Shown here: positions 8,510-20,323 of the stretch, in pieces
Position numbering within the stretch: the stretch's first letter is position 1
Layout of the letters: every line of letters starts with the position of its first letter
NCBI GenBank assembly: GCA_900318205.1
Contig: ONJS01000009.1
Coordinates: 92,088-156,087 of the forward strand
DNA: 64,000 bases
From: an uncultured Prevotellaceae bacterium
Lineage (GTDB): Bacteria > Bacteroidota > Bacteroidia > Bacteroidales > Muribaculaceae
Reading direction: 5' to 3'
Notes under the pieces: generated by a model
Seen by the model: the letters and a program-made list of their open reading frames with translations, nothing else
Database searches by the model: none
Told to the model about the DNA's origin: nothing
Translations under genes and position numbers: made by a program

Positions 8510-11500
8510 ATGACTATTCTGAGAAGATTAACCATGATTGCGACACTGTTGTTGACTCTCGGTGCCGCTGCTCAAACCAACCCGCTGTGGATGCGTTTTT
8601 GCGCTATATCTCCTGACGGAGAGACTGTTGCGTTCTCCTACAAGGGAGACTTGTTCACTGTGCCGGTACAGGGTGGCATAGCCCATCAACTGACGTCAAA
8701 TGACGCCTACGATGCCTACCCCGTGTGGAGCCCTGACGGTCAGAACATTGCCTTTGCCTCGGCACGCGAGGGAAGCCTCGACGTATTTGTTGTCAAGAAA
8801 GAGGGCGGCACCCCCAAGCGCCTCACCACCGACAGCGGCAACGAGACCCCGATGTGCTTCCTCGACGACAAGACGGTGCTCTTTGAGGCCGCCAACATGC
8901 CCTCGGCAACATCCATCCTCTTTGCCAGCAGCCAATTTCCGCAGGTGTATCAGGTGAGCACCGACGGCGGCAGGGCACGCCTGTTCTCAGAACTGCCGAT
9001 GCAGGACCTGAGCATCAACAGCCGCGGTGATATCCTCTACCACGACATCAAGGGCTATGAGGACCCCTTCCGCAAACATCACACGAGTTCTATCACCCGC
9101 GACATCTGGCTGAAGCAGGCGGGCAAGTTCACCAAACTCACCGACTTCAACGGCGAGGATCGCACGCCCCGCTGGGCGGCCGATGGCAACGCCTATTTCT
9201 ACCTGAGCGAACAGGACGGGACCTTCAACGTCTATAAAAACACCATCGGTGGAAAAGCCAAGCAACTTACCCGCCACACGAAGCACCCCGTACGCTACCT
9301 GACAGTCGCCAGCAATGGCATGCTGTGCTACAGTTACAACGGTGAGATTTACACCTTGCGCGAGGGCGGTGAGCCCCAAAAGGTCAATATCACCATCAAT
9401 GCCGACCGCAGCGAGAAAGAGCTGATCCGCCAGATTAAGAAAGACGGCGCTACCGCCATCAGCGTTTCTCCTGGCGGCAAGGAAATCGCCTTTGTGATGC
9501 ACGGCGACGTGTATGTCACCTCGGTGGACTACAACACGACCAAGCAGATTACCGACTCGCCCGAGCAGGAGCGCACCATCGACTTCTCGCCCGACGGCCG
9601 CAGCATCGTCTATGACAGCGAGCGTAACGGCATGTGGCAGATTTATCAGACGTCCATCAAGAACAAAGATGAAAAACTGTTCACCTATGCCACCGACCTG
9701 ATGGAAGAACAACTCACCAATACAGGCCACACCTCCATCCAGCCGCAGTACAGCCCTGACGGCAAGAGTGTCGCCTTCCTCGAAGACCGCGCCACCCTGT
9801 GCGCCGTTGACGTGAAGAGCAAGGCGGTGCGCACCCTGATGGATGGCAAGTATATCTATTCCTACAGCGACGGCGACGTATGGTATGAGTGGAGTCCTGA
9901 CAGTCGCTGGCTCCTCTCCTCCTACATCGGCACAGGCGGCTGGAACAGCCAGGACGTGGCCCTGGTCAATGCCAGCGGCAACGGCGAGGTGCACAACCTG
10001 ACCGAGAGCGGCTACAACGAGGGTAACGCCAAGTGGGTCCTCGGCGGCAAGGCAATGATTTTCACCAGCGACCGTGCGGGCTATCGTAGCCACGGCAGCT
10101 GGGGCACCGAGGATGACGTGTATATCATGTTCTTTGACCTGGATGCCTACGAGCGCTTCAGGATGACCAAGGAAGAGAAGGTGCTGCGTGAAGAGGCTGA
10201 GAAAGACAAGAAGAAAGAAGCCGAGAAGGAAAAGAACGACAAGGCTGACAAGAAGAAAAACGATAAAAAGAAAAAGGCAGCAGCCGACGAGAAGCCTGCC
10301 GTGCCTGCACTGCAGTTTGACTTGGAGAATTGCCGTGACCGCATCGCGCGCCTGACCGTGAACTCCTCCCGCCTGGGCGATTATGTCCTGTCCAACGGCG
10401 GTGACACGCTCTACTATCAGGCAGCCTTTGAGGGCGGTATGGACCTGTGGAAACATGACCTGCGTGAGAACAAGACCGAAATCGTGCTCAAGGGCGTGGG
10501 CGGTGGTTCCATGGAGATGGACAAGGACGGCAAGAACCTCTTTGTCTGCACGGGCAATGGCATCAAGAAGATTGACCTGGGCAAAGGCAAACCCGAGCCC
10601 ATCAGCTTCGAGGCCAACTTCAACTACCGTCCCTATCAGGAACGCGAGTACATTTTCAACCACATCTGGCAGCAAGTCAAGGACAAATTCTACGTCGAGG
10701 ACATCCACGGTGTGGACTGGGAAGGCTACCGCGACAACTACAAGCGCTTCCTGCCCTACATCAATAACAACTACGACTTCCGCGACATGTTGAGCGAGAT
10801 GCTGGGCGAATTGAACGGTTCCCACACGGGTGCCCGCTACAATGCCCCGGGTGCGAGCCTCAAGACAGCCGTCCTTGGCCTCTTCCTGGACAACACCTAT
10901 GAGGGTGACGGCTTGCGTGTCGAGGAAGTCATCAAGCGTGGCCCCTTTGACGTGAAGAAAACGGGTGTCACCCCCGGCTGCATCATCGAGAAAATCGACG
11001 GTCACAACATTCTGGCTGGCGAGGATTACAACTGGATGCTTGACGGCAAGGCAGGCAAGCCCATCCATGTCACCGTCTTCAACCCGACGACCAAGAAGCG
11101 CTCTGATGTCACCGTCAAGGCCATCAGCAAGGGCGAGCAGAATGAATTGCTTTACAAGCGCTGGGTGGATCGCAACCGTGCCCTGGTGGACAGCCTCTCG
11201 GGCGGTCAGCTGGCCTATGTCCATGTCAAGGAAATGAACAGCCCCTCGTTCCGCACCGTCTATCGTGAACTGCTCAGCGACAAGAACCGCAACCGCAAGG
11301 CCGTCATTGTCGATGAGCGCCACAACGGCGGCGGCTGGCTGCACGACGACCTGTGCACCCTGCTCAGCGGCAAGCAGTACCAAGAATTTGTGCCTCATGG
11401 CAAGGTGGTTGGTGCCGACCCGTTCAACAAGTGGACCAAGCCTTCCTGCGTACTCATGTGCGAGGACGACTACAGCAACGGCCACGGCTTCCCCTTTGTC

Positions 11501-11752
11501 TATAAGGAATTGGGGATCGGCAAACTCATCGGTACCCCCGTACCTGGCACGATGACCGCCGTCTGGTGGGAGACGCTGATTGACAACTCGATGATCTTCG
11601 GCATCCCGCAGGTAGGCTGCCGTGACATGCGCGGCAACTACTGCGAGAACACCCCGCTGCTGCCCGATGTTGAGGTCTACAACACCCCCGAGGACTACCT
11701 CACCGGCCACGACCGCCAACTCGAACGCGCCGTCCAAGAAATGCTGAAGTAA
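8510..11752 (+). CDS. Tricorn-like S41 family peptidase with beta-propeller
   Basis: A 1080-residue exported protease. Signal peptide about 1-21; TolB/WD40-like propeller repeats (SPDGETVAFSYKGDLF, SPDGQNIAFAS and similar) occupy roughly residues 25-550. A Lys/Glu linker (about 560-600) follows, then a C-terminal half with PDZ and S41 domains. The tricorn catalytic set can be placed: Ser771-His772 in GSHTGAR, nucleophile Ser989 in DDYSNGHGFP and Glu1021 in AVWWETL. These positions parallel tricorn protease Ser745/His746/Ser965/Glu1023. It should degrade peptides in the periplasm. The gene is single, with its own promoter and terminator. Confidence 0.88.
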   Translation: MTILRRLTMIATLLLTLGAAAQTNPLWMRFCAISPDGETVAFSYKGDLFTVPVQGGIAHQLTSNDAYDAYPVWSPDGQNIAFASAREGSLDVFVVKKEGGTPKRLTTDSGNETPMCFLDDKTVLFEAANMPSATSILFASSQFPQVYQVSTDGGRARLFSELPMQDLSINSRGDILYHDIKGYEDPFRKHHTSSITRDIWLKQAGKFTKLTDFNGEDRTPRWAADGNAYFYLSEQDGTFNVYKNTIGGKAKQLTRHTKHPVRYLTVASNGMLCYSYNGEIYTLREGGEPQKVNITINADRSEKELIRQIKKDGATAISVSPGGKEIAFVMHGDVYVTSVDYNTTKQITDSPEQERTIDFSPDGRSIVYDSERNGMWQIYQTSIKNKDEKLFTYATDLMEEQLTNTGHTSIQPQYSPDGKSVAFLEDRATLCAVDVKSKAVRTLMDGKYIYSYSDGDVWYEWSPDSRWLLSSYIGTGGWNSQDVALVNASGNGEVHNLTESGYNEGNAKWVLGGKAMIFTSDRAGYRSHGSWGTEDDVYIMFFDLDAYERFRMTKEEKVLREEAEKDKKKEAEKEKNDKADKKKNDKKKKAAADEKPAVPALQFDLENCRDRIARLTVNSSRLGDYVLSNGGDTLYYQAAFEGGMDLWKHDLRENKTEIVLKGVGGGSMEMDKDGKNLFVCTGNGIKKIDLGKGKPEPISFEANFNYRPYQEREYIFNHIWQQVKDKFYVEDIHGVDWEGYRDNYKRFLPYINNNYDFRDMLSEMLGELNGSHTGARYNAPGASLKTAVLGLFLDNTYEGDGLRVEEVIKRGPFDVKKTGVTPGCIIEKIDGHNILAGEDYNWMLDGKAGKPIHVTVFNPTTKKRSDVTVKAISKGEQNELLYKRWVDRNRALVDSLSGGQLAYVHVKEMNSPSFRTVYRELLSDKNRNRKAVIVDERHNGGGWLHDDLCTLLSGKQYQEFVPHGKVVGADPFNKWTKPSCVLMCEDDYSNGHGFPFVYKELGIGKLIGTPVPGTMTAVWWETLIDNSMIFGIPQVGCRDMRGNYCENTPLLPDVEVYNTPEDYLTGHDRQLERAVQEMLK

Positions 11753-11774
11753 GTTTTTTGCCAGTAACATCATT

Positions 11775-11877: not shown

Positions 11878-12900
11878 ATGCCCAACAATAGAAAAGCCTT
11901 ATTGCGATACAAGGTGCTGGACAAGTGCCTCGGTGACAGGCATAACATTTACTACATCGACGACCTTGTGGATGAAGTGAATCATGCGCTGGAGGTTGCG
12001 GCTATCCTGCCAGTCTCCAAGCGGCAAATCTATGCCGATCTTGATTTCATGAAGAGCACTGATGGCTGGGAAGCGCCAATTGTCTCTGTCCAACACGGCA
12101 AACGCAAGTATCTGAAGTATTCGAGAGACTTTTCTATTATGGAGACTCCTATCACCGAGATGGAGATGGAGCAGTTGGAGACGCTCATCACATCTTTATC
12201 GAGGCTACAAGGCATACCGATGTATGACTGGGTGGATGATCTGTTGGCTCAGTTGCGGCCCCGCTTCGGCGGTGGTGGCAATGACGCCAGTCTTATCGGT
12301 TTTGAGCAGAACCGCGACCTAGCAGGGCTGCGCTACCTATCTGACTTGATCAATTATACCATCAGGCACCAGGTTGTGGTGATTGACTATCATCCTTTCG
12401 GAAAAGACAAAGTGCAGTGGATGATACACCCCTATTACCTCAAGCAGTACAATAACCGCTGGTTCCTGCTGGGTTATAATCCATTGTATGATGACTTGAC
12501 GATTGTGGCATTGGACAGGATTGAAGGTCTCGACCCCATTGAGAAGCCCTTCAAGCAGAACCAATACATCAACTTTGACAACTACTTCCGCAACATCATC
12601 GGCGTCTCGCTGGAAGATGAAAGGACGGTGGTACAAGTCATGTTGAAATTCACGCCTAATCGTCTACCCTATGTCCTTTCAAAGCCTCTCCATCACTCTC
12701 AGATGATTGAAAATCGGCGTGAGGGCATCGTCTCTATCCGAGTGATTCCTAACAAGGAACTGATTTCCGAACTAATTTGGTTTGGTAGCGATGTCGAAGT
12801 ACTCGCTCCAGACTCAGTGCGAGACCAAATCAAGCAAAAAATTGCACAAATGCATGAAATATATTTTGGTGTGAAGAATGACTTCACAACTGGCTCATAA
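11878..12900 (+). CDS. WYL-domain transcriptional regulator
   Basis: A 340-residue regulator. An N-terminal winged helix-turn-helix (about residues 1-80, VSKRQIYADLDFM is the probable recognition region) precedes a WYL domain (about 145-265, with HPYYLKQYNNRWFLLGYN) and a C-terminal WCX-type extension. Relatives include BrxR/CapW-type regulators of phage-defence loci. Those bind palindromic operators and are thought to sense a ligand or DNA through WYL. The stop codon lies inside the -7 box of the next gene, and the last codons overlap the operator at 12870-12888. It is the obvious candidate to bind both copies of that inverted repeat. Regulation of its own promoter by the same site is not evident. 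Confidence 0.88.
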   Translation: MPNNRKALLRYKVLDKCLGDRHNIYYIDDLVDEVNHALEVAAILPVSKRQIYADLDFMKSTDGWEAPIVSVQHGKRKYLKYSRDFSIMETPITEMEMEQLETLITSLSRLQGIPMYDWVDDLLAQLRPRFGGGGNDASLIGFEQNRDLAGLRYLSDLINYTIRHQVVVIDYHPFGKDKVQWMIHPYYLKQYNNRWFLLGYNPLYDDLTIVALDRIEGLDPIEKPFKQNQYINFDNYFRNIIGVSLEDERTVVQVMLKFTPNRLPYVLSKPLHHSQMIENRREGIVSIRVIPNKELISELIWFGSDVEVLAPDSVRDQIKQKIAQMHEIYFGVKNDFTTGS

Positions 12901-12905
12901 CTTTG
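12870..12905 (+). promoter_or_regulatory. Operator palindrome plus -7 box before the kinase gene
   Basis: Inverted repeat TGTGAAG-AATGA-CTTCACA (12870-12888), then TAACTTTG at 12898-12905. Eight bases separate CTTCACAA (ends 12889) from the box, so the repeat covers the usual -33 position. The same arrangement occurs at 16522-16560. It is probably a repressor or activator site for the WYL protein; that is inference. Confidence 0.75.
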
Positions 12906-12933
12906 CAGCCGAAAACCAAAAACTCAAAAGACT

Positions 12934-15408
12934 ATGCGTACAGCAAACAACACCAACAACTACACCGTAGAGGGCCTCGTTGCCAAGTATTGTAACTTCG
13001 TAAAGGAGAACACTCGAAAATACAAGGAGTATATTCCTCCTTATGAAGATGAGAATGGTTATGATATTGAAGTTCCAGTATCTGATATTGATGCTAGTCC
13101 AGACCAACAATTGGTAGTTACTTTATACAATAAGGTTGCTGGTAATAATTCAGATAAAGAAATCTTGTCTGTATTATCTGAATACTCTGATCATTTCTAT
13201 AAGGGTGTTCTGAATGATGACGAATTTGCATTCTTATGCGTGCATTTTCCAGAAGTAATTGAATATGAGTTTACTCATAGAACTGACTGGTATTGCCCTT
13301 ATATTCATATGCGTCTCGAAGATCAGTACGAAAAATTAGAGAATCTAATCAAAGAAAGGGTTCCTTTTAAAGAAGGCCAGACTGTTTTCATTCCAGATGC
13401 TGGTTATTGCGACCTTGCAGTGCGCTTTAAGGGCTGTGTTGTTAAAGGCTATACAAGTATCATATCGGGCAGCAGATATAAGAAGGATATGGACATCGTA
13501 TGGGCATTGGGGCAAATCCGACTCTATGCTGCCGGTATTCAATCAGAAATCGTTCCTTATATCAATTTGAATGAGGAGTTTAATGATTCTCATGTGCAAG
13601 ACAACAATCTTGTTGACTTAGTCGTTTGTCTCTCTTTTTCAAATGGATACGACAAACTATATAATCTGCTCAAAAAGAGTGGTCAGATGTTCCTTTTTGC
13701 CAAGCGAGACGATTTGGTCGACTATGCTAGGTATAAAGAATTCCGATATAAAAAGATGGGCGAAGATTTTAATGAGTGGGAGGAGAAATGGGCTTTGACA
13801 CGAAAGGAATTCCTCAATAAGCTCATTAAATCCCGTGCCATACATTCTTTAGTATCATATAATGACAAAGATACGGTTCTTGATGTTTCAGTTGACTGTA
13901 TCCTTCTTCATATTGAGAAGAAGAATCATTCAACTGTTGATGTAGAAAGCATCAATAGGGGCGTTATTGTCAAAGTCAATCCTTCTGTTTTAGATGCCAA
14001 TTTACTTTGGCCTGGCTATTATCTTGCTAATCGTCCAAAAGAAGGAAAGCCTTTGTCTAGTTTGGTTAAATTATTCAACACACAGGATGAGGTTGTTGAA
14101 CAGTACTGGGCTCGTGAAGATAAGGGTATTAAATTGTCTGGTGATTTACTCGTGCTGTCTCCAAGAGATTTTGGAAACAAGTATGCTGATGCTTGTATGA
14201 ACGAAAAGGATTTGACGAAACTTTCAGATCCAATGTTTGAAGGTTGGGAACCACGCATGTTAAGCATTCATCACCCAGGTGTTTGTGTGCTTGGCAATAC
14301 TAAGAAATTTCTCGTGGGTTATGTCAATGATGATCCGACAAACAAGTTCGTATGTGTAGGTATTGTGCCATACCTTATACCAAAGCGTAATATTGATGTA
14401 CGCTACATCGCAGCGTTACTATTGTCTCCAGAGGTAAAAGAGCAGATTCTCACGGTTTGTGATGGTTCCATAACAGCAAAAACCATGTCATTGATTCTTG
14501 ACAGAATCATTGTGCCCAAGCATACGCCTAAGGAACGTATTCAGTTCCTTGCTGATACAAATTACGAAGCATTGATGTCCACCAAACAAGAGTTAAAGAA
14601 AAATCATGAGGACTACAAAAAAGCTGTCAGGATGCGTAAGCATGCTTTGACTCAAACATTGTCCTCTATGAAATCCTGCTTTTCATCATTAGACAAGTTT
14701 CGGCAGCATAATGGCGGCAAATTATCTGACGAAGATAAGATTACTCCGATCACTGATGATACAGTTAAAGATTCGTTTGATTACTTATCATTACAATTTT
14801 CTGAAATGATGCCTATTATAGAACATATTGCTGATGTCGAATACTCTTTTCAAAATCCAGAAAAGATTGATCCCGAGAAGTTCATAGAAGACTATATCGC
14901 AAAACACGTAGGAGGTTGGCATAATTTCAAGCCCATAATGAACTGGGAAACGGGTCACAATCATTATAAATCAGATCTCGTTGATCCTATTACCCAAGAA
15001 ATAGTTGCTAAAAAAGGTGATGTGATTTGGAGTTTGATTTTCCCAAAAGATGCCTTGGAGCGCGTTTTGGGCAACATTATCATGAATGCCCAAAGTCATG
15101 CTTTCATTGACAAATCACGTAAGGATTACAAGTTGCGTTTCTCTTGTTATTCAGACGGAACATTGTTGGTTGTGAAGATTGAGAACAATGGAACCCCAAT
15201 TCCAGCTGATCAAGACGTTTCTTCTTTATTGGAGTATGGTGTGTCATCCAAACTTCACCAAGACGGCCATAATGGCATTGGATGCAATGAAATTGATGAT
15301 ATCATGCGACGATATGATGGTAAATTCGAATTGGTGTCATCTCCGAATGAGGAATTTACAGTGAAGTATATCCTCTCGTTTAAATCTAATATTTTAGGAA
15401 GTTTTTAA
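12934..15408 (+). CDS. Histidine-kinase-like fusion: methyltransferase-like, HsdS-like and HATPase regions
   Basis: An 824-residue soluble protein. Residues about 140-270 (VFIPDAGYCDLAVRF, WALGQIRLYAAG, LVDLVVCLSFS) look like a degenerate SAM-methyltransferase fold with no NPPY motif. Residues about 380-545 (DVRYIAALLLSPEVKEQIL, then IIVPKHTPKERIQFLA) resemble the specificity-subunit regions of type I restriction or BREX-type proteins. Helices follow with a candidate phosphoacceptor His570 in RKHALTQTL. A C-terminal HATPase has an N-box at 714-722 (NIIMNAQSH), a G1-like ENNGTP at 750 and a G2-like NGIG at 780. The next gene is a REC protein, so it is probably a cognate sensor kinase. Base composition is clearly AT-richer than flanking genes. 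The two N-terminal assignments are tentative; the HATPase is firm. Confidence 0.75.
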   Translation: MRTANNTNNYTVEGLVAKYCNFVKENTRKYKEYIPPYEDENGYDIEVPVSDIDASPDQQLVVTLYNKVAGNNSDKEILSVLSEYSDHFYKGVLNDDEFAFLCVHFPEVIEYEFTHRTDWYCPYIHMRLEDQYEKLENLIKERVPFKEGQTVFIPDAGYCDLAVRFKGCVVKGYTSIISGSRYKKDMDIVWALGQIRLYAAGIQSEIVPYINLNEEFNDSHVQDNNLVDLVVCLSFSNGYDKLYNLLKKSGQMFLFAKRDDLVDYARYKEFRYKKMGEDFNEWEEKWALTRKEFLNKLIKSRAIHSLVSYNDKDTVLDVSVDCILLHIEKKNHSTVDVESINRGVIVKVNPSVLDANLLWPGYYLANRPKEGKPLSSLVKLFNTQDEVVEQYWAREDKGIKLSGDLLVLSPRDFGNKYADACMNEKDLTKLSDPMFEGWEPRMLSIHHPGVCVLGNTKKFLVGYVNDDPTNKFVCVGIVPYLIPKRNIDVRYIAALLLSPEVKEQILTVCDGSITAKTMSLILDRIIVPKHTPKERIQFLADTNYEALMSTKQELKKNHEDYKKAVRMRKHALTQTLSSMKSCFSSLDKFRQHNGGKLSDEDKITPITDDTVKDSFDYLSLQFSEMMPIIEHIADVEYSFQNPEKIDPEKFIEDYIAKHVGGWHNFKPIMNWETGHNHYKSDLVDPITQEIVAKKGDVIWSLIFPKDALERVLGNIIMNAQSHAFIDKSRKDYKLRFSCYSDGTLLVVKIENNGTPIPADQDVSSLLEYGVSSKLHQDGHNGIGCNEIDDIMRRYDGKFELVSSPNEEFTVKYILSFKSNILGSF

Positions 15409-15420
15409 TTCAAAATAAAA

Positions 15421-16461
15421 ATGAGAAATTATGATTTAATCCAAGTATTATGGGTTGAAGATGATAGTTCCATCATCAACCAGTACAAGAAAGATGCTTA
15501 TTATGCTAATCTAGAACTAATCTCTTATCCTTGTTGGGACGATGCAAAGGAGGCACTAGAGAAAGAATATGACCGATGGTCTGCAATTATCCTTGACGCC
15601 AAATGTAAGCATCACCGAGATAGTTCAGATAGTGCTGTAGTATTTCTACGTGAGGCACTAAAGGATATCTCAGTGCTTGCAGAGAAGAAACAAAGTGTTA
15701 TCCCCTGGTATGTCCTGACTGGCGGTGACACATCTGAAGTTTCCGATAGTATTAACGATGAACGATTAGAATGGGATAGTGATTGGACAAGAAGTAGCAA
15801 CAAGAAATACTACTCAAAGAATACGGATACTGAGATGCTCTATGATCGTATTCGAGCTCATGCCAGATATTCATATTGTCTTCAAATACATAAATTGTAT
15901 CGCAATGTTTTTGAGGCTATAGAAGAGTGCAAAATAGACGATGCTGCTTACAATGCTCTTGAGGATTTGTTACTTCCCATCCATTTTCCTGATGAGATAG
16001 ATGCCAAAGACTATAATGATAAATTCCAAAAGGCAAGAGATGTTTTGGAGTATATTTTCCGCTCGATGTCTTCCTATGGAATTCTCCCCGATTGGGGACG
16101 TCAAGTGAACCTTTCGGCATCAAGTCATTTGCTTGCGGGAAAAGATTTCACAAAGAATGATGGTAGTGTTATTGTAAAAAGCAATGCAGTTATCCTGCCT
16201 AAAGAATTATCAAGGATAATGCGCGCCATGGTTAATATCATTCCACCGTTCTGCCATTCAGATAGTGGTATCGAAGACAATGTTCGCAAAAAAGAGTACA
16301 TGACCTCGGTAGAGAATTCCACTTTTTTGCTCAAGAGTTTCACGCTTCAATTCTGTGATCTGATACTATGGTATCGCAATTATTTGCACGAACATGGAGA
16401 CATAGAACAGAACACCAAAAATTGGGAAGTGATCGACGAGAAACAGTTTAGGCGTAGATAG
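15421..16461 (+). CDS. Response-regulator-like protein with unknown helical output region
   Basis: A 346-residue protein starting 12 bases after the kinase stop, almost certainly co-transcribed. The REC domain (about 1-140) has acidic residues Asp14/Asp15, phosphoacceptor Asp59 in IILDAKCK, Thr100 in YVLTGGD and Lys129 in NKKYYSK. Residues about 145-346 contain no HTH or known output domain that I recognise and look mostly helical. The output is therefore probably protein-protein rather than DNA binding. It may relay a signal to the helicase encoded next, which shares an operator. It is AT-rich like the kinase. Confidence 0.78.
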   Translation: MRNYDLIQVLWVEDDSSIINQYKKDAYYANLELISYPCWDDAKEALEKEYDRWSAIILDAKCKHHRDSSDSAVVFLREALKDISVLAEKKQSVIPWYVLTGGDTSEVSDSINDERLEWDSDWTRSSNKKYYSKNTDTEMLYDRIRAHARYSYCLQIHKLYRNVFEAIEECKIDDAAYNALEDLLLPIHFPDEIDAKDYNDKFQKARDVLEYIFRSMSSYGILPDWGRQVNLSASSHLLAGKDFTKNDGSVIVKSNAVILPKELSRIMRAMVNIIPPFCHSDSGIEDNVRKKEYMTSVENSTFLLKSFTLQFCDLILWYRNYLHEHGDIEQNTKNWEVIDEKQFRRR

Positions 16462-16483
16462 TATATTCCACTTAGACTTTTGG

Positions 16484-16523
16484 TATTTTGGCAATGTGAT
16501 TGCCAAAATATTTTTTCTTTTTG
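16484..16523 (+). terminator. Rho-independent terminator after the response regulator
   Basis: Perfect 11-bp stem (16484-16494 with 16500-16510; arms TATTTTGGCAA and complement), loop TGTGA, then TTTTTTCTTTTTG. It separates the kinase/regulator transcript from the helicase transcript. Confidence 0.85.
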
Positions 16524-16560
16524 TTGTGAAGTATGACTTCACAACAGGACTCTACCTTTG
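16522..16560 (+). promoter_or_regulatory. Operator palindrome plus -7 box before the helicase
   Basis: Perfect 10-bp arms around TATGA: TGTTGTGAAG (16522-16531) and CTTCACAACA (16537-16546). TACCTTTG follows at 16553-16560, with eight bases between CTTCACAA and the box. Sequence and geometry are the same as at 12870-12905, implying a common regulator. Confidence 0.8.
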
Positions 16561-18963: not shown

Positions 18964-19063
18964 AATTCGTGTAATTTGCATTGGCTCTGCAAGGTTAATG
19001 GGTTAAATTTGCATGTGCCTCAACAAAACCAAATCAAAATTTGGCATTTTGAGCTTTTAGCAC

Positions 19064-19141: not shown

Positions 19142-20323
19142 ATGATAGAGAACGAGAACATACCCATTCCAGTTGAGTATCAGGACATTTGCCCGATTCC
19201 TGACAAGGACTTCCAGACGGCAATGACCATCCTGGTTCAGGAACCCGGTTTCCAGAAAATTGTGGCCATGGCACTGCCCAACTACAAGTACTCGGAATTC
19301 AAACACGTGCTGCTGAGCATCAACTCCAAGCATGAATTCCAGGTCAAGGTGATGAAACCCTTCATCGAGGGTCTCATGGCCAAGACGGCAACTACGCTCT
19401 CCACAAGCGGCACCGAGAATCTGGACAAGGAAGTGCCCTATACCTTTGTCACCAACCACCGCGACATCGTGCTCGACTCGGCCCAGCTGAGCTATCTGCT
19501 CATCAAGGGTGGACGCGACGCCTGCGAAATCGCCATCGGCAACAACCTGCTCATCTATGACTGGATCACCAAGCTGGTGCGCATGAACAAGAGCTTTATC
19601 GTGAAGCGCAACCTGGGCCGTATCCAAACGCTGACCGCAGCCGTGCAACTGTCAGGCTACATGCACTTTGCCGTGCAGGAGAAACGCGCCTCGCTGTGGA
19701 TTGCCCAACGCGAGGGACGTTGCAAAGACAGCAACGACCGCACCCAGGAGAGCCTCATCAAGATGCTGGCCTACGGCAACCGCGACAAGTCCTTCCTCGA
19801 CAGCCTCAAGGAATTAAACATCGCACCCATCTCGATCAGCTATGAGTATGATCCCAACGACTACCTGAAGGCCAAGGAGTTCCTGTGCAAGAGCAAGAAC
19901 CCCAACTGGCGCAAGGCTCCCGAGGACGACCTCATCAGCATGAAGACCGGTATCATTGGGCACAAGGGTGAGGTACACTATGCCTTCACACCCTGCATCA
20001 ACGAGGAATTGGACAAGATTCCCGAGGGTCTGGACAAGTTCCTGGTGGTTGACCGCGTGTGCGCCATCATTGACCACGCCATCCATCAGAACTACAAAAT
20101 CTATAAGACCAACTACATCGCCCACGACATCCTGTTCGATGACAAGCTCTTTGCCGACAAGTACACTCAGGAGGATCGCGAGGCATTCGAGCAGTACCTC
20201 TCGAGCCAGATCGACAAGACCGAGGGTCTGAAGTTGAGCGAGGCCGACCGCTTCTACATGTACAACAAGATGTTGCAGATGTACAGCAACCCGCTCACCA
20301 ACTACCTGGAGGCAACGAAGTAG
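19142..20323 (+). CDS. Phospholipid/glycerolipid acyltransferase family protein
   Basis: A 393-residue protein with the acyltransferase signatures TNHRDIVLDSA (His106 as catalytic base, a variant of the NHxxxxD motif) and QREGRCKDSND (the EGxR-like phosphate-binding motif). It probably transfers acyl chains to a lysophospholipid or glycerol phosphate at the inner membrane. It is longer than PlsC and lacks transmembrane helices, resembling the Bacteroidota 1-acyl-glycerol-3-phosphate acyltransferase-like group. Exact substrate unknown. It stands alone between spacers. Confidence 0.78.
   Translation: MIENENIPIPVEYQDICPIPDKDFQTAMTILVQEPGFQKIVAMALPNYKYSEFKHVLLSINSKHEFQVKVMKPFIEGLMAKTATTLSTSGTENLDKEVPYTFVTNHRDIVLDSAQLSYLLIKGGRDACEIAIGNNLLIYDWITKLVRMNKSFIVKRNLGRIQTLTAAVQLSGYMHFAVQEKRASLWIAQREGRCKDSNDRTQESLIKMLAYGNRDKSFLDSLKELNIAPISISYEYDPNDYLKAKEFLCKSKNPNWRKAPEDDLISMKTGIIGHKGEVHYAFTPCINEELDKIPEGLDKFLVVDRVCAIIDHAIHQNYKIYKTNYIAHDILFDDKLFADKYTQEDREAFEQYLSSQIDKTEGLKLSEADRFYMYNKMLQMYSNPLTNYLEATK

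Follow-up and report, generated by a model that had tools for sequence, protein, structure and literature searches.

Kinase cassettes near restriction–modification (R-M) or immune genes are of a known kind, as exemplified by the HEF_HK/Response_reg_2 pair (Bellieny-Rabelo et al. 2021, PMC8011034) and by CapK/CapS (Chambers et al. 2026, PMC13373217), and WYL proteins have been tied to type I and type IV restriction (Picton et al. 2022, PMC9122601). Here we describe a locus in which a WYL regulator, a kinase, a receiver-domain (REC) response regulator and a PIF1-family helicase are encoded one after another, and in which one palindrome stands at both the kinase/REC promoter and the helicase promoter. 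It lies in a stretch of 64,000 nucleotides (the window) from an uncultured Prevotellaceae bacterium (assembly GCA_900318205.1, contig ONJS01000009.1, positions 92,088 to 156,087). The regulon is real and recurrent, and its most unusual part is the kinase, whose sensor half resembles a DNA methyltransferase (hence 'pseudo-methylase').

The HEF_HK/Response_reg_2 pair resembles this locus in that a soluble kinase and an adjacent REC-like protein are tied to R-M genes, also in Bacteroidetes. It differs in occurring mainly with type II R-M systems and C5-cytosine methylases, and the main text of that paper contains neither WYL, 'palindrom-' nor HsdM (PMC8011034). The Pfam family of its kinase, PF19191, was not among the families matched by 39 aligned kinase sequences (E ≤ 0.01), nor that of its regulator, PF19192, among those matched by 43 REC sequences (E ≤ 0.1). 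CapK/CapS likewise pairs a GHKL kinase with a partner, as an exchangeable control cassette placed ahead of immune operons of many kinds, R-M among them; there, in contrast, the partner is a STAS/HTH (helix-turn-helix) repressor phosphorylated by a kinase that is activated by single-stranded DNA (ssDNA), and the main text does not use the term 'response regulator' (PMC13373217). No STAS match was obtained for the WYL, kinase or REC proteins at E ≤ 1. A methylase-like sensor is described for neither in the available text (PMC8011034, PMC13373217).

WYL regulators of the BrxR type also stand beside restriction genes (type I, 34, and type IV, 37, of 210 associated systems), but the main text on them mentions neither 'histidine kinase' nor 'two-component' (PMC9122601), whereas in the present locus the operator is common to a kinase/REC pair and a helicase. 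SiwR, a WYL activator, controls its neighboring operon through an imperfect palindrome of 19 bp that lies between −10 and −35; it belongs to a mycobacterial stress operon, for which the available text describes no two-component partner (PMC10693628). The set of WYL, kinase, REC and PIF1 proteins is not described in the available text of a survey of bacteriophage exclusion (BREX) systems (PMC12839542), of an R-M review (PMC12707154) or of PMC7159879. The first-pass annotation of this DNA named no described system with this set, and we too recognized none in a literature search of open-licence PMC papers.

That annotation had also placed one palindromic operator at two promoters, of the kinase/response-regulator pair and of the helicase, with arms of 7 and 10 bp, 8 bases ahead of each −7 box and with a strong terminator between the units. 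Our analysis reproduced the positions, arms and spacing and located the terminator (Table 1). Operator 1 overlaps the final codons of the WYL gene, inside its 3′ end. Counted from CTTCACAA, 8 nt separate the operators from TAACTTTG (12898) and TACCTTTG (16553), which we take to be −7 boxes by applying the −7/−33 promoter words of Bacteroidota. TGTGAAG-N5-CTTCACA matches exactly twice in the window, each time before TAnnTTTG. The host assembly, which spans 3.62 Mb in 53 contigs and is about 95% complete, contains no further copy; the shorter form GTGAAG-N5-CTTCAC occurs there at six places. With three mismatches allowed, the window gave five matches (the two exact ones and three with three mismatches) against 3.35 expected, which is chance level. 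At the same tolerance the operator plus −7 box pattern had six matches in the host genome, of which both window sites were the only exact ones.

Table 1. Features of the WYL/kinase/REC/PIF1 locus, in positions of the window
Feature	Position	Strand	Basis or remark
WYL/WCX transcription regulator, 340 aa	11878–12900	+	Pfam WYL 2.6e-10, WCX 1.7e-11
Operator 1	12870–12888	none	TGTGAAG-AATGA-CTTCACA, 7-bp perfect arms; 5′ of kinase gene
−7 box of kinase/REC unit, TAACTTTG	12898–12905	+	Bacteroidota-type; placed alike in relatives
Kinase, 824 aa	12934–15408	+	HATPase_c 1.4e-5, just below cutoff
Kinase sensor, methyltransferase-like and recognition-like (residues ~1–535)	12934–14538	+	AlphaFold/Foldseek fold
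Kinase H-box His570	14641–14643	+	Invariant in relatives
Kinase GHKL ATPase (residues 706–811)		+	HATPase_c
Response regulator (REC), 346 aa	15421–16461	+	Receiver domain (Asp59, Lys133) and all-helical C-terminal part, ~150–346
Intrinsic terminator	16482–16521	+	14-pair stem 16482–16512, then T-rich tail TTTTCTTTTT; divides the two units
Operator 2	16522–16546	none	TGTTGTGAAG-TATGA-CTTCACAACA, 10-bp perfect arms; 5′ of PIF1 gene
−7 box of PIF1 unit, TACCTTTG	16553–16560	+	8 nt from CTTCACAA
PIF1-family helicase, 689 aa	16587–18656	+	Pfam PIF1 1.9e-34; weak C-terminal TPR models below cutoff

A palindrome with 7-bp perfect arms just 5′ of TAnnTTTG was found in the window in five registers at three distinct places, the two operators and one other site; 100 dinucleotide shuffles averaged 0.05 registers and never gave more than two. 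Perfect arms of at least 9 bp are less special when the box is disregarded, with 15 registers in the window, several of them elsewhere, versus 0–3 in 10 shuffles. A third palindrome, TCAAAATTTGGCATTTTGA (19034–19052), different from the operators, lies 5′ of a TAATTTTG box ahead of an acyltransferase gene (19142–20323).

The gene set recurs in other genomes. A scan of species genomes with two REC patterns, which could recover only loci matching those patterns, returned 40 loci, with relatives counted as returned (loci and genomes are designated L and G below). As the scan was run on REC, adjacency of a kinase was not assumed, and a kinase gene adjoins REC in 40/40 loci; since all of them were found through REC, this figure is partly by construction, and a kinase query also found the pair. 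Among genes on the same strand and no more than 5.2 kb away, 20 loci have PIF1, 8 have hsd-type genes and 12 have neither, counts that include all 40 loci in spite of some overlap among samples (L076 = G484, L097 = G388, L099 = G306, L106 = G305). HsdM, HsdS and HsdR are encoded together in 7 of the 8 hsd loci, the other (L112) retaining only an 84-aa fragment. A WYL-type gene lies at most 9 kb upstream in 34/40 loci, and WYL, kinase, REC and PIF1 occur all together in 16/40. The set of four proposed in the first-pass annotation thus does co-occur elsewhere, but the helicase is one of several partners, as relatives of the kinase/REC pair precede hsdM/S/R.

In the host family, the kinase query matched 12/198 genomes at E ≤ 1e-3, own included; G484 (78% identity) and G331 (48%) were close, and the remaining matches covered the C-terminal part, or two parts in G306. 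Eleven stretches from this search were fetched; three of them (L036, L038, L039) showed no REC relative and were therefore not aligned. Among 295 genomes of the order, 11 matched: the window's own full-length kinase, with no further full-length relative, and 10 that matched in the GHKL part only and were dropped. A REC profile search found 9/198 family and 16/395 phylum genomes, own included, with 10 of the phylum 16 at E 1e-14 or better; the four weakest of the 16 were not among the loci fetched. Eleven phylum loci were fetched: kinase and REC are both present in 10, and hsd genes directly follow REC in 6. Neither kinase nor REC relatives were found in viral contigs or plasmids. The sole match in a phage collection (L153, 5269–16404, MT835483.1) is a human-faecal scaffold encoding HTH, WYL, kinase, REC, HsdM, HsdS and HsdR, with the kinase motif CPPF. 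Its neighbors look bacterial, so it was not counted as a phage gene set; the unverified scaffold is probably a bacterial contig.

Several loci show additional arrangements. Two tandem kinase-REC pairs occur in each of L081, L083, L104 and L112, the second pair being weak or partial in L081 and L104. A gene for a YhcG/DUF1016 PDDEXK nuclease lies between WYL and kinase in some class B loci (class defined below), namely L087 (874–2100), L089 (5242–6459) and L091 (5261–6469), the domain having been checked in L089 and assigned in the other two by sequence likeness. In L079 (10488–12157), two DUF488 proteins and a dual-OB protein are encoded between REC and PIF1.

The palindrome persists at both promoters in relatives, and different clades carry different palindromes. 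Class A, TTGTGAAG..CTTCACAA, is found at both the kinase and the PIF1 promoters of eight loci including the window (the others being L074–L077, L079, L080 and L084), at nearly fixed spacing; some sites are imperfect, those of L080 and L084 being the weakest. Class B, GCGAAA..TTTCGC or GCGCAAAT..TTGCGC, occupies the kinase and PIF1 promoters of L087 and L089–L092. In class D, mostly hsd loci, the palindrome is GGACTTTTGAAGAATGACTGCAAAAGTCC, both arms being altered together and the core retained. The first-pass annotation would have been refuted by absence of the inverted repeat from orthologous loci or by failure of the four genes to co-occur elsewhere; both conditions were checked, and neither refuted it. 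Palindrome type tracks WYL subfamily: mean WYL identity is 60–74% within the operator groups and 22–40% between them. Classes A and D share a GAAGAATGAC-type core and a similar WYL helix word, VSKRQIY/VSKRQVY (variants VSKKQIY, VTKRQIQ, VSVRQIY), while class B has VS(R/K)RTIE; we presume these words to be the recognition helix. Likeness between the two promoters within a locus was 21.3 over 19 loci, compared to 15.7 when loci were shuffled (maximum 19.8), and 23.25 versus 19.43 for the 12 loci of classes A and B (p 0.0002); these permutations leave out two of 21 loci, in which the two sites are not both present.

The class B operator also lies 5′ of the WYL gene in 4/5 loci, the contig of the fifth (L087) beginning within that gene. 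In class A, none of the seven loci tested has the operator at the promoter of the WYL gene itself. The WYL protein of the window, whose best start is ATG 11878 (the mechanical open reading frame begins at TTG 11854), matched no HTH family in a Pfam scan, an HTH-like stretch being visible by eye only, and among PADLOC models it matched only generic WYL and Cas3c. Comparison across the loci gives good support to a regulon under predicted WYL control, with the WYL protein as the leading candidate for binding the palindrome. TTG at −33 is missing in 16/16 class A sites listed, so the WYL protein would lean to activation, as in SiwR; it is also missing in 5/5 class B kinase sites. Absence of this element was rejected as proof of an activator, as 4/5 class B PIF1 sites do have TTG. 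Phage-defense WYL regulators known so far have been described as repressors, in the available text of PMC10693628.

The first-pass annotation had called the second protein simply a kinase. It is not an ordinary sensor kinase. An AlphaFold model of the window kinase (predicted local distance difference test, pLDDT, 79.8) was compared with PDB structures by Foldseek, which ranked M.TaqI at the top (E 2.4e-10), with a type I methyltransferase third and CamA lower, and which returned HK853-type kinases for the C-terminal half. The label 'recognition-like' and the motif names used for the sensor half are our own assignment. PADLOC gave one HsdS model (residues 461–566, 1.2e-4). In 39 aligned kinases, Pfam matches at E ≤ 0.01 comprised HATPase_c in 39, N6_Mtase in 18 and Methylase_S in 5. 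Of the first four relatives scanned, three had N6_Mtase above cutoff, one of these with Methylase_S below cutoff, and the fourth (L030) had only the GHKL part above cutoff; all three hsd-linked kinases tested matched PADLOC models of type I methyltransferase and specificity subunits. The phospho-acceptor residue of the H-box, H570, and the N/G-box residues N714, N718, N751–G753, G781 and G783 are invariant in 39/39 sequences, whereas the catalytic motif (N/D/S/T)PP(Y/F) occurs in 0/20 PIF1-linked, 3/8 hsd-linked and 0/11 other kinases, the window kinase reading CLSF at this position. Thus, the sensor half is like type I R-M modification and specificity subunits and M.TaqI in fold and, among relatives, in sequence, but in the PIF1-linked branch to which the window belongs it has lost the catalytic motif and is fused to a histidine-kinase core. 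The protein is apparently an N6-adenine DNA methyltransferase-like sensor with a recognition domain, joined to an intact kinase core.

Sensor and kinase halves recombine between relatives. Compared to L076, the window kinase is 87–89% identical in the methylase/recognition parts and 62–66% in the kinase parts; compared to L077 the pattern is reversed (36–37% and 61–66%). L074 DNA is 95–100% identical to the window per 250-base bin at about 13.0–15.5 kb, the kinase region, and 72% in PIF1; its bins show identities of 0.83–0.92 in WYL and 0.68–0.92 at the REC 3′ end. L075 shows 92% in PIF1 and 80% from WYL to REC. The L074 comparison points to a recent block exchange of the kinase region, which would fit genes selected for diversity.

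The REC protein of the window had no Pfam match and no PADLOC model. Its AlphaFold model (pLDDT 86.9) shows a receiver domain and a helical part, and the PDB matches listed were mostly receivers and PorX-type regulators. Asp59, Lys133, Arg206 and His279 are invariant in 43/43 REC sequences, and the receiver acidic pair and Thr/Ser are present in a nine-sequence alignment. A DUF4145 match appeared in 6/43 sequences at E ≤ 0.1 (best 0.0051), the matches inspected in detail being below cutoff, so that a DUF4145/HEPN-like output stays a hint; the HEPN link of DUF4145 is one that we assume. In a tree of the 43 sequences, PIF1-linked and hsd-linked proteins cluster, with three label changes each versus 7.9 in shuffles; its branches are long, so the deep order is unsure.

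PIF1-like matches were found in 122/149 family genomes, the listed identities being mostly 36–46%. Matches of at least 50% over most of the length occurred in only 3/149 (own, G331, G361), so the locus type of PIF1 is not the common one. PADLOC gave 21 models on the window PIF1, taken as partial helicase/ATPase stretches. As an obligatory partner PIF1 was rejected, since relatives at 41–54% identity exist without the kinase/REC pair. In L148 (7946–11007), L149 (8176–11221) and L150 (8190–11214), PIF1 follows two conserved small genes (~150 and 168 aa), with no kinase/REC; this gene pair also precedes PIF1 in L081–L083, L088, L104 and L109. Two copies tested (L081) had no Pfam or PADLOC match.

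Taken together, we consider it probable, if by no means certain, that the locus represents a modular control cassette for loci of the restriction type, probably directed against foreign DNA, in Bacteroidales and their relatives, made up of WYL, pseudo-methylase kinase, REC and an output gene. The WYL protein would bind the palindrome at two promoters, that of the kinase/REC unit and that of the output gene, here the PIF1 helicase, and the shared operator would switch sensor and output together. The kinase, carrying a worn-out DNA methyltransferase and recognition part as its sensor, would most likely scan DNA for some specific sequence or state of modification and would itself add no methyl group. 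On finding target DNA it would phosphorylate the REC protein, and phospho-REC, via its helical output domain, may then target either the WYL protein or the output enzyme, the PIF1 helicase being the output in place of hsdMSR. Our best reading is therefore a 'pseudo-methylase' two-component switch that reads DNA and serves R-M systems elsewhere and a helicase here. More tentatively, and as a possibility we hold to be somewhat less likely than not, the family may form a new two-component class, in which a histidine kinase with a catalytically inactive adenine-methyltransferase/target-recognition module detects sequence-specific unmodified or wrongly modified DNA and turns on restriction enzymes or a PIF1 module via REC and WYL. 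Such an inducible, sequence-specific self/non-self sensor would have its recognition half swapped among strains, like HsdS.

A number of observations weigh against this reading. The methyltransferase fold match has a TM-score of 0.28 by query and 0.53 by target, and the window kinase is itself below Pfam N6_Mtase detection, so the methylase reading rests on homologues and the fold match. Motif I, the S-adenosylmethionine site, is likewise eroded in PIF1-linked kinases; the module may therefore respond to a signal that is not DNA. Neither PIF1 nor hsd genes lie downstream in 12/40 loci (one of which, L085, ends at the REC gene), and 6/40 have no WYL gene upstream, although three of these (L078, L082, L085) have little upstream contig. 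PIF1 relatives occur with no kinase/REC in the stretch fetched in G361 (54%) and in G394, G409, G336 and G370 (41–44%); three of these five genomes have two small conserved genes before PIF1. Promoter likeness holds at the level of the class and not of the single locus (own rank 1–5 within class A, where both sites could be anchored). The number of independent events behind it is therefore small. A third promoter group (L081–L083, L104, L108, L109) has only CTTGCA in common, at the would-be −33 position, and was rejected as sharing a true operator; nothing clear is in common between the L088 promoters. None of the eight window proteins scanned at 8.0–21.6 kb, other than those of the locus, resembles a defense gene. 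A type I R-M-like locus stands apart on another contig of the host (L152 10151–19904, contig C42; HsdM-like and HsdR-like, N6_Mtase over cutoff), and the kinase/REC cassette is absent from the 20-kb stretch around it.

We weighed this switch against other explanations. The locus could be a DNA-damage module run by the WYL protein, which would sense ssDNA and induce the helicase for repair, the kinase pair being a co-regulated but separate stress sensor. PIF1 helicases do work in DNA maintenance, and their relatives are widespread in the family, as seen above; in addition, the WYL domain of SiwR, an activator under genotoxic stress, binds ssDNA, and its palindrome is placed between −10 and −35 (PMC10693628). 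Such a module is unlikely, however, given that the kinase has a methylase/recognition fold and relatives that precede hsd genes, and that PIF1 of the locus type was found in so few family genomes. It seems still less likely that phospho-REC itself binds the palindrome, the role of the WYL protein being confined to ligand sensing or to the control of some other target. Response regulators often bind inverted repeats at their own promoter, and an operator does precede the kinase/REC unit, but no DNA-binding output family was seen in the 43 REC sequences except weak Myb-like words (L107) and a weak phage-integrase word (L113). Moreover, the listed PDB matches align the receiver, longer alignments (PorX, StyR, DesR, FixJ) having a root-mean-square deviation above 12, and operator classes track the WYL subfamily, the class B site standing at the WYL gene as well.

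Two further explanations appear very improbable. The palindromes might be passive, left over from a promoter duplication and bound by no regulator: both window promoters could stem from one duplication, and perfect inverted repeats of at least 9 bp do occur elsewhere in the window. Passive remnants are hard to reconcile with retention at both promoters and at near-fixed spacing in eight class A loci, or with arms that change on both sides between classes. The kinase, for its part, might be a GHKL ATPase that handles DNA at R-M loci, as has been proposed for paraMORCs, and not a signaling kinase. GHKL ATPases next to R-M systems are known (PMC8011034, in its available text), but the H-box histidine is present in 39/39 kinases and a receiver gene adjoins in 40/40 loci, a count that is partly by construction, as noted above.

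As for the surroundings in the window, PADLOC gave no system-specific match on the locus, and no hsd genes were found among the eight proteins scanned. A 928-aa open frame on the minus strand (8987–11773), antisense to a Tricorn-like protease gene (8510–11752), is probably a composition effect.

If the pseudo-methylase switch operates as proposed, a DNA-reading kinase with a retired methylase would provide a direct path from an encounter with foreign DNA to gene expression, and bacterial sensing of DNA modification by phosphorelay would become testable. A sensor that reads DNA would also constitute a new class of two-component sensor. The switch would moreover bring a recurrent, so far unnamed Bacteroidales gene set under one heading, and our results show one regulator cassette common to type I R-M and to a PIF1 helicase.

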